Below are positions 20,276 through 24,934 of a stretch of 64,000 bases of DNA, one piece after another. Each line of letters starts with the position of its first letter. The stretch's first letter is position 1. The DNA comes from Deltaproteobacteria bacterium (GTDB taxonomy: Bacteria > Desulfobacterota > Desulfobaccia > Desulfobaccales > 0-14-0-80-60-11), in contig JASEFS010000014.1 of the NCBI GenBank assembly GCA_030018495.1, positions 1-64,000 on the forward strand, given 5' to 3'. Under the pieces are notes generated by a model that searched no databases, was not told the origin of the DNA, and saw nothing but the letters and a program-made list of their open reading frames with translations. Position numbers and translations under genes: made by a program.

Positions 20276-21565
<1,290 letters not shown>

Positions 21566-21826: not shown

Positions 21827-22423
21827 TCAAGAAAATTTGAGGTCTCGCCAAATGTTTTCCACCTGTTTTTTGGTATCCTCCAAAGAGCCGCGATTGTCAA
21901 TCACATAATGGGCCAACCGCCGCTTTTCGCCAAGCGGCCACTGGGCTGCCAGGATGCCGTCGATTTCCCGGAGATCCCGCTCATCCCTGGCCTTGAGCCG
22001 CTGCATCTGCTGTGCCGTATCGGCATATACTACAATAATGCGGTCATAGGCGTTTTGCAAGCCCGTTTCAAACAGCAGGGGCACTTCCACGATGACCAGC
22101 TTTTCGCCCTTCTCTGACAGTTCCTTTACCTTATCCCTGATCATCCCGATGATGCGCGGGTGGAGAATGGCGTTTAATTTTTGCCGGGCCTCAGGGTCGG
22201 AAAACGCCAGCCGCGCCATTTTGCCCCGGTCCAGTTCGCCGTCTTCCTGAAAGAACTCGGGTCCGAAAGCGCGGCGGAGCTCCTCCCAGGCCGGCGCCCC
22301 CGGCCTGACCGCGTCCCGGGCCGCGGCGTCGGCGTCCACCACCGCCGCGCCCAGCTCCTTAAACATGCGGGCCACCGTGGACTTGCCCGACCCGGCTCCG
22401 CCGGTGAGAGCGACTTTGAGCAT
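21827..22423 (-). CDS. coaE: Dephospho-CoA kinase
   Basis: 198 aa; LKVALTGGAGSGKSTVARMFKELGAAVVDADAAARD. Confidence 0.95.
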   Translation of the reverse strand: MLKVALTGGAGSGKSTVARMFKELGAAVVDADAAARDAVRPGAPAWEELRRAFGPEFFQEDGELDRGKMARLAFSDPEARQKLNAILHPRIIGMIRDKVKELSEKGEKLVIVEVPLLFETGLQNAYDRIIVVYADTAQQMQRLKARDERDLREIDGILAAQWPLGEKRRLAHYVIDNRGSLEDTKKQVENIWRDLKFS

Positions 22424-22510
22424 AGTTGAGTGTTTTTTTTCTTGAGGGAGGGGACCAGGGGGGTGCGGGCCCTGCCCCCTCCCTCAAACTCCCTCCCCCA
22501 ACCCCTAATT

Positions 22511-22560
22511 GTAGGGTGCGCACCGCGCCCCATCATATTCGGCGGGCAGTGCCCGCCCTA
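22511..22560. repeat. Pair of GTAG-headed REP-type palindromes between HNH gene and coaE
   Basis: GTAGGGTGCGCACCGCGCCC and GGCGGGC-AGT-GCCCGCC-CTAC. Confidence 0.85.
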
Positions 22561-22590
22561 CATTTGCTGATGAGCATATTTTTACAATAA

Positions 22591-23946
22591 TTAAGCATCA
22601 ATACTTCCACTACAACCAGATATGCGATATTTTGTACATCCCCAAAATGCTCTCCAATGCTGCCCTGGCTTTGGTTTTATGAGACGCATGTCTGAACCGC
22701 ATTTAGGACACTTTGGGGCCGATGATTTCTTCGAAGCTATTGTACTTGTCTTTTTCCTTGATTTTGACTTTACCCCCTTGAATAGTCGAAATGTTGAGTC
22801 AGAACGCTCTTCTATCATATCCCAACGAGGATGCCATTCCCCTTTATTTTTTGTAACAGCCAAAACCTCTGCTAATCGTGGCCCAGTTTCTTCAGATAAT
22901 TTTCTTGGACCAATCCAACTATTTGAGCACTCAAGACAATTGACTGCAACTTGTTGTTTCTGTTTGCTAATATTAGTTGTCAGGTTTTTATTATTACAGG
23001 ATGGGCATGAGAGTCCATAGTAATTTATTATTTCTGAGAGATCCGATTTGCTAATCAACTCTAATCGCCTTACATGGGCTCTCACATCATGGTATCCTGG
23101 AGAAGATGGATTTCTTCTTTTATGTGCATGTACCATAGTAAAATATCTAGTTTTTATATCTCCCCAAATCCTTTCATGTCCTTCATCAGGTTCCAACGCA
23201 TGGTGAAAGCAACATAACGTTATTAAATTCTTGGGAACATGCTCACCACCTTGGGAGACTGGAATTTTATGATGAATGTGGAGTTCGGTCCTTGAAGGAC
23301 ATCCAGAAACTTGGCACCTATTTCCGTCACGTTCCATGACAACCAGTCGTAAGTAATTCCAAAAAGGAGGATAGCCTGGCCAGTTATTAAAAACTTTGAG
23401 AATTGCCTTGTCGCGGGAAGTGAGTATAGCAAGTGGATCATGAAAATGCCGCAGTTCTGGCCCTACTGGTTTAGGGTATAACGATTCCCATTGCTGTAAT
23501 CTCTTCCCATGTTCTTTTTTTGCTGCTTTATAAATTAGAAAAAGTGTTACAGGAGCGGCTATAAAAAGAATATTCAAATATAAAAGAGCAAGAGAAACCC
23601 AAACTAAAATACCAATTGGTCCATAGATTTTCCGATATGGACAAGATTGAATGAAAGCTTCGCGGGCTTGATGTCTTGCTTCCCGCTCTTTTATAAATTC
23701 CCTTTTTTGCCTCTCATATTTTTCTGGATATTGAATACTAGAAATTTCAGTAAAACATTTTTTACAGAGATATGATTTATCATTTAGTAGAAGGCCAGGA
23801 CTTTCATAACCTCTGCAAAGAATACAAGGGTTTTCAAGTCTATCGACTTTATTCTCATTATAAGCTTCATTATGTTCAATAAATTTGTCGATATTTACCT
23901 TTGCTAAAAAATGTTTTGGGCTGAATTTTGCATGCCATGATTCCAT
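22591..23946 (-). CDS. Membrane-associated HNH endonuclease with multiple zinc fingers
   Basis: 451 aa; N-terminal CILC...CKKC finger, two hydrophobic helices, HNH core RDGNRCQVSGCPSRTELHIHHKIPVSQGGEHVPKNLITLCCFHH, CPSCNNKN...CLEC, C-terminal topoisomerase-type CPKCGSDM...FWGCTKYRISGC; AT-rich relative to flanks. Confidence 0.7.
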   Translation of the reverse strand: MESWHAKFSPKHFLAKVNIDKFIEHNEAYNENKVDRLENPCILCRGYESPGLLLNDKSYLCKKCFTEISSIQYPEKYERQKREFIKEREARHQAREAFIQSCPYRKIYGPIGILVWVSLALLYLNILFIAAPVTLFLIYKAAKKEHGKRLQQWESLYPKPVGPELRHFHDPLAILTSRDKAILKVFNNWPGYPPFWNYLRLVVMERDGNRCQVSGCPSRTELHIHHKIPVSQGGEHVPKNLITLCCFHHALEPDEGHERIWGDIKTRYFTMVHAHKRRNPSSPGYHDVRAHVRRLELISKSDLSEIINYYGLSCPSCNNKNLTTNISKQKQQVAVNCLECSNSWIGPRKLSEETGPRLAEVLAVTKNKGEWHPRWDMIEERSDSTFRLFKGVKSKSRKKTSTIASKKSSAPKCPKCGSDMRLIKPKPGQHWRAFWGCTKYRISGCSGSIDA

Positions 23947-23947
23947 A

Positions 23948-24934
23948 TTATTTCATCTCCCGCTCCTTTAGTAGTTCTAAAATTTGTTGGAAATCCTCCG
24001 GCAGCGGCGCCTCGAAGGCCATCGCCTCGCCGGTCCGGGGGTGGCTGAAGCCCAGGTTCCGGGCGTGCAGGAGTTGCCGCGTCACCAGGGGCTTGAGGCC
24101 CCGGAGCCGGGGTTCGGCCTTGAGCCGGGCCGCGCCGCCGCCGTAGGCCGCGTCCCCCACCACGGGGTGGCCCAGGGAGGCCAGGTGCACCCGGAGCTGG
24201 TGGGTGCGCCCGGTCCGGGGCTTGAGCTCCACCAGGGTCAGGGGCGGGGCGAATTCCTCCAGCACCCGCCATTGCGTCACCGCGGCTTTGCCCCGGCGGG
24301 CATGCACGCTCATCTTCTGGCGCTCCGAGGGGTGGCGGCCGATCTCCTTTTCGATTTCCCCCGTCTTGGTCTTGAACCGGCCCCACACCAGGGCCACATA
24401 GGTTTTGTCCACCTGCCGCGCCTGGAATTGGCGCACCAGAGACTCATGGGCCAGGGCCGTTTTGGCCGCGACCAGAAGGCCGCTGGTGTCCTTGTCCAGG
24501 CGGTGCACCAGGCCCGGGCGGCTGACGTCGCCGATGTCCTGGAGCTCCGGGCAATGGGCCAGAAGGGCGTTTAAGAGCGTGCCGCCGCGGTGTCCGGCGC
24601 CGGGATGCACCACCAGCCCCGGCGGTTTGTTGACCACGATTATATCCCCATCCTCAAAGATAATGTCCAGAGGAAGGGGCTCGGCGGCCAGAAAACCGGG
24701 CTCCGGCGGCGGCACCGTCAAGGTGATGCGGTCTCCCGGCCGCACCTTATAGCTGGCGGACTGGGCCAGATCATTGACCAGGACCAGGCCGGCCTTCAGC
24801 CAGCGCTGCACCCGGGCCCGGGAATAGCCGGCCTGGCGCGCCAGGAACTGGTCCAGGCGGGCGCCGGCCTCCGCCTCGGGCACCGTCAGGCTGATGAGGC
24901 CGGAATCGTCGCGGTCTGGAGAAGCCCCGGCCAT
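23948..24934 (-). CDS. rluD: Pseudouridine synthase RluD family
   Basis: 328 aa; S4 domain then VVNKPPGLVVHPGAGHRGGTLLNALL, GLVHRLDKDTSGLLVAAKT, RTGRTHQLRVHLASLGHPVVGDAAYG. Confidence 0.95.
   Translation of the reverse strand: MAGASPDRDDSGLISLTVPEAEAGARLDQFLARQAGYSRARVQRWLKAGLVLVNDLAQSASYKVRPGDRITLTVPPPEPGFLAAEPLPLDIIFEDGDIIVVNKPPGLVVHPGAGHRGGTLLNALLAHCPELQDIGDVSRPGLVHRLDKDTSGLLVAAKTALAHESLVRQFQARQVDKTYVALVWGRFKTKTGEIEKEIGRHPSERQKMSVHARRGKAAVTQWRVLEEFAPPLTLVELKPRTGRTHQLRVHLASLGHPVVGDAAYGGGAARLKAEPRLRGLKPLVTRQLLHARNLGFSHPRTGEAMAFEAPLPEDFQQILELLKEREMK

Follow-up and report, generated by a model that had tools for sequence, protein, structure and literature searches.

Gene content and composition of the locus

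The window, the whole 64,000-nucleotide stretch of DNA analysed here, carries on its minus strand a 451-aa open reading frame (ORF) for an HNH nuclease (22591-23946), whose existence as a real ORF was confirmed and which is supported by a Pfam HNH match and by relatives elsewhere. On the same strand, rluD (23948-24934) lies upstream, and coaE (21827-22423) and then rho (20276-21565) lie downstream. The HNH gene is stand-alone: as the first-pass annotation had noted, no partner gene is present beside it, and no paralogue was found in its own genome. Nor is a methyltransferase, the mark of a restriction-modification system, encoded between rluD and rho in the window.

The composition of the gene sets it apart from its GC-rich surroundings. 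Its GC content of 0.379 is ~4.6 SD below the mean of the window ORFs (0.594, SD 0.047) and its GC3 is 0.265, versus a mean of 0.733; both values are the lowest among the 48 ORFs in the window that are 150 aa or longer.

The ATG of the HNH gene follows the rluD stop (TAA, 23948-23950) after a single base (ATGAAATAATATGG), again as first annotated. The end of rluD is itself AT-rich (23948-23989, minus strand, 33% GC), and its final codons contain a likely ribosome-binding site for the HNH gene (GGAG, 23957-23960; AAAGGAG, 23963-23969). Expression of the HNH gene probably depends on read-through from rluD and on translational coupling to it; promoter and terminator scans at the gene gave signals not clearly above chance. 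The spacer between the HNH gene and coaE (22424-22590, minus strand) consists of dispersed short repeats with ~30 partial matches elsewhere in the genome. No inverted repeats were found around the HNH gene, and the short direct repeats there were only chance-like.

Architecture and conservation of the HNH protein

Full-length relatives occur in two further genera of the host's bacterial family (G017, 68% identity; G008, 63-64%) and in a metagenome-assembled Zixibacteria genome from another phylum (L003, 52%), and a relative with 37% identity that lacks the last finger lies on a prophage contig (L007). Together with the window protein these make up the five family members compared here. The six-module order first proposed (zinc finger, two transmembrane helices, helical linker, HNH nuclease, zinc ribbon, topoisomerase-type zinc finger) stood as described for the window protein, but not throughout the family, as detailed for the last two modules below.

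The N-terminal finger (C41, C44, C61, C64; 23755-23826, this and the following features all on the minus strand) has four cysteines that are invariant in all five members; it is weakly DUF4428-like, with a below-cut-off DUF4428 match (E 0.011) in the Zixibacteria protein. It is followed by a hydrophobic hairpin of two short, predicted transmembrane helices (residues ~110-143; 23518-23619), for which 19-residue hydropathy reached 2.2-2.9 in every member. The residues of the hairpin vary among members, yet the hairpin itself is always present, as expected for a membrane anchor, and both of its ends are predicted to lie on the cytoplasmic face. AlphaFold2 models built from the five-sequence alignment placed helices at residues 103-121 and 130-156, but with low confidence (pLDDT 54.8 for the full-length protein and 61.0 for the core), so they were not used and confirm neither the topology nor the fold.

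A helical linker separates the hairpin from the HNH core (residues ~199-254; 23185-23352). The core scored 29 bits against the Pfam HNH profile PF01844, above the gathering score of 21.4. The active-site residues (His-His/Asn/His: H225, H226, N240, H249) and the structural zinc ligands (C211, C216, C245, H248) are invariant in 5/5 members, down to 37% identity, which places the protein in the PF01844 superfamily; the loss of catalytic residues that the first-pass annotation had named as counting against its reading was thus not observed. Beyond the core lies a double V-x-x-H-x-R-[R/K/H] motif (residues 269-297; 23056-23142) that had been missed in that annotation. It is conserved in all five members, forms strands in the low-confidence model and possibly binds nucleic acid. 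The zinc ribbon (C314/C317/C337/C340; 22927-23007) has lost C317 in the G017 relative. The topoisomerase-type finger (C413/C416/C437/C445; 22612-22710) is present in the four bacterial members and absent from the prophage relative; its cysteine pattern is recognizable, but its score against the topoisomerase I C4 finger profile (PF01396), 20.7 bits, is under the cut-off of 32.

Matches in PADLOC, NCBIfam and PHROGs were centred on the HNH core, with only weak zinc-ribbon matches elsewhere in the protein. PADLOC has no dedicated model for it, and the PADLOC matches were limited to the HNH motif. A profile search of the PDB likewise gave weak HNH-motif matches, among which a 5-methylcytosine-specific restriction enzyme ranked first (E 0.014). 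Pairwise NG86 dN/dS values among the three members from the bacterial family were 0.16-0.19, with dS near saturation, indicating that the protein is under purifying selection.

Distribution and inheritance

The HNH gene is rare, being found in three of the 29 genomes of the host's class, with no match in the other 26, and in two of a 395-genome sample of the phylum. Plasmid and phage tblastn searches found no full-length relative, and repeated viral scans returned the same single prophage contig and no other. In each of the three carriers from the bacterial family the gene comes after an rluD 3' end, while the Zixibacteria copy lies between nucleotide-sugar genes and leuS (gene names at the Zixibacteria and prophage loci were assigned mostly by eye). 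Vertical conservation behind rluD with a housekeeping role, named at the outset as the contrary outcome, was matched in gene position only: the gene again lies behind an rluD 3' end in two relatives from the bacterial family, but most genomes of the class lack it, so that it is not a vertically fixed housekeeping gene.

The three carriers are scattered on the coaE tree. Among them, HNH proteins are 57-68% identical, versus ~60% for CoaE and ~69% for RluD, a resemblance that would fit vertical descent. On the other hand, GC3 of the HNH gene is 0.20-0.27 in carriers whose neighbouring housekeeping genes have values of 0.73-0.86, and in every host none of the other genes compared is as AT-rich. 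This contrast, along with empty sites in the genus of G008, favours repeated acquisition from an AT-rich pool, which we consider likely although not settled. The horizontally acquired character first suggested for the gene is thus borne out by its patchy presence in three scattered genera, its AT-richness in each host, the variable slot that it occupies and its 52% identical relative in another phylum. Overall, the HNH gene is genuine and rare, keeps a conserved catalytic site and has the character of a horizontally exchanged gene.

A variable slot between rluD and coaE

We sought rluD and coaE across the 29 genomes of the class. In the sister family, f2, ~3-12 bp separate the aligned gene ends. 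In f1, the family of the host, this distance varies between 57 and 4289 bp, with 57 and 77 bp in G007 and G009 and 4289 bp in G004. The coaE-rho gap, which served as a control, is constant at 260-324 bp in 19 genomes. The variable slot was observed at 22424-23947 of the window and at loci L056-L067 and L075. Its cargo in f1 includes relBE-like and HicAB-like toxin-antitoxin genes, genes of unknown family and, in G004, genes for a PMT_2 membrane protein and a B12-radical-SAM-like protein (names assigned by eye, except for PMT_2 and the HNH_5 protein described next). The G014 slot holds a different AT-rich gene (32% GC; L061:1476-2471), which encodes an HNH_5 protein.

The AT-rich tail of rluD apparently travels with the cargo. 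GC content over the final 10-14 codons of rluD is 27-33% in the three HNH genomes (for G017, in the tail copy directly preceding the HNH gene) and 21% in G014, compared with 60-71% in G007 and G009, two members of the genus of G008 that have no insert. An extra rluD 3' end of ~100-130 nt occurs inside the slot of G017, G002 and G010, where it separates a relBE pair from the cargo that follows, in G017 the HNH gene. The approximate positions of the duplicated ends are L002:297-455, L057:2120-2250 and L064:2213-2335. Such duplicated tails suggest that cargo inserts at the 3' end of rluD and either leaves a gene tail behind or brings one along. The slots showed no integrase, and exchange would presumably proceed by homologous recombination through rluD.

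The slot relE genes of G002, G017 and G010 (G002:C45:19941-20198, G017:C135:5551-5808, G010:C129:1841-2098) are 85-99% identical to the G002 copy, whereas other copies in the family reach at most 53%. As coaE of these three genera is only ~60% identical to that of the window, the far closer relE genes suggest recent cross-genus exchange of slot cargo.

An identical 12-mer, GAGGGTTGATGA, was observed right before the start codons of two unrelated cargo genes in different genera, the HNH gene and the gene of a 211-aa protein (L005:1486-1497 and L057:2255-2266).

In a literature search, largely of papers available without subscription, no description of an rluD-coaE hotspot was found. Neither the rluD slot nor the Zixibacteria locus is a defence island.

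A relative in a prophage lysogeny region

The prophage relative is the best clue to function: it is located in a lysogeny region, with a candidate defence module. The gene order there is an S24-type repressor, the HNH gene, a 146-aa ORF, PDC-M02A (DUF4365; E 3e-68), PDC-M02B (E 6e-112), a serine recombinase and tRNA-Leu, and the HNH relative is thus likely to sit among genes expressed in the lysogen. This association comes from a single locus, and PDC-M02, a two-gene system in PADLOC-DB, itself has candidate status only. The PDC-M02A/B pair (L007:7630-9328) lies between the HNH relative and the serine recombinase, which adjoins tRNA-Leu.

Proposed function and alternatives

Given the prophage context, membrane hairpin, nuclease domain and accessory distribution, the protein most likely defends against DNA entering the cell, each functional step being inferred. 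The defence idea advanced in the first-pass annotation is plausible and somewhat strengthened. At the level of sequence, the HNH site is intact, hairpin and zinc fingers are conserved, selection is purifying and the distribution is accessory. The presence in the same slot of toxin-antitoxin genes and of the different HNH_5 protein points the same way.

In its specific form, to which we give about an even chance, the protein would be a stand-alone inner-membrane HNH nuclease attacking DNA on its way into the cell, most likely that of phages as it is injected. The gene would have been acquired as cargo of the variable rluD-coaE slot. With both of its ends kept on the cytoplasmic side by the hairpin, the protein would use its fingers and His/Arg motif to bind, where entry takes place, either DNA or a partner. 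The HNH domain would cut DNA as it crosses the membrane, with the tether holding the enzyme away from the chromosome. A more far-reaching version, which we put forward tentatively and hold to be rather doubtful, is that the proteins, built of finger, membrane hairpin, HNH, His/Arg motif and ribbon, form a hitherto undescribed nuclease family that cuts DNA at its site of entry. In this bacterial family their gene would be borne on an exchangeable cassette, lacking an integrase, that inserts at the rluD 3' end and either substitutes for the terminal portion of rluD or duplicates it. The literature search, with the coverage given above, found no description of a membrane HNH defence protein of such layout.

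The same anatomy and context would also suit a defence nuclease working otherwise than at the point of entry, a possible if somewhat improbable alternative. The hairpin might instead sense membrane damage or a phage protein, upon which the HNH domain would destroy all DNA (abortive infection), or the fingers might recognize modified DNA, as in type IV-like restriction. HNH cores are common in abortive-infection and type IV-like effectors, and the HNH motif weakly matched mREase_IV and ZorE models; these matches stop at the motif, however, and no known sensor domain or signalling partner is present.

A selfish free-standing homing endonuclease, which would cut empty rluD-coaE alleles and be copied in by repair, could account for the resemblance of the core to phage HNH families (E 2e-10), the position after an rluD 3' end in 3/3 carriers of the bacterial family, the patchy distribution and the alternative alleles at one site. 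Simple homing was nevertheless judged unlikely: the members are not tied to a single target site (an rluD 3' end in 3/5, elsewhere in the Zixibacteria and prophage relatives), the slot accepts cargo without any HNH gene, including cargo with an rluD-tail duplication, and a conserved membrane hairpin is unexpected in a homing enzyme. Least probable of all is an ancestral, vertically inherited family gene with a cellular role in membrane DNA processing, lost many times, which fits the shared position in three genera and the flank-like identities but was judged unlikely given the GC3 contrast with neighbouring housekeeping genes, the empty slots of two congeners of G008, the 26 of 29 class genomes lacking a match and the unrelated alternative cargo in the slot.

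If the entry-site function holds, location and not sequence would mark DNA as foreign, and the rluD-coaE slot would be a place in this lineage to seek small accessory genes outside classical defence islands.

Comparison with known systems

Phage HNH endonucleases (PHROG 333, 119 and 589; ST64B sb56) share the HNH core, with E-values of 2e-10 to 1.7e-9 for the PHROGs, but the similarity spans at most ~100 residues and neither the hairpin nor the finger array was matched. ZorE, DpdF and type IV (mREase_IV) models have the HNH motif in common with the protein, with weak, motif-limited scores (E 0.0087 for ZorE); unlike these systems, the HNH locus, with its neighbours rluD, coaE and rho, has no partner genes, neither ZorA/ZorB nor a Dpd cluster. 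The HNH_5 protein in the G014 slot is likewise an HNH nuclease encoded by an AT-rich gene directly behind rluD, but it belongs to a different HNH family (PF14279) and differs in architecture.

The closest parallel in mode of action may be SNIPE, which offers an experimentally tested precedent: this membrane-bound nuclease cleaves phage DNA while it is being injected, and loss of the transmembrane domain makes it toxic (PMC13190303). The HNH protein resembles SNIPE in layout. Both are single-gene nucleases of accessory distribution; the membrane anchor and cytoplasmic nuclease domain of SNIPE have predicted counterparts in the HNH protein, where hydropathy supports a hairpin in 5/5 members, and the N-terminal finger of the HNH protein weakly resembles the N-terminal DUF4428 domain carried by some SNIPE homologues that lack a transmembrane segment (PMC13190303). 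On the other hand, SNIPE combines DUF4041 with a GIY-YIG nuclease and has a single membrane pass near its N terminus, whereas our protein has an HNH nuclease, a two-helix hairpin at residues 110-143 and extra zinc fingers, and gave no DUF4041 match and no GIY-YIG match in Pfam, PADLOC, NCBIfam or PHROGs. Lacking both defining domains, the HNH protein is not a member of SNIPE; by analogy it may work like SNIPE, and if so, membrane-tethered cutting of incoming DNA would have had a second origin, in a nuclease of unrelated fold.
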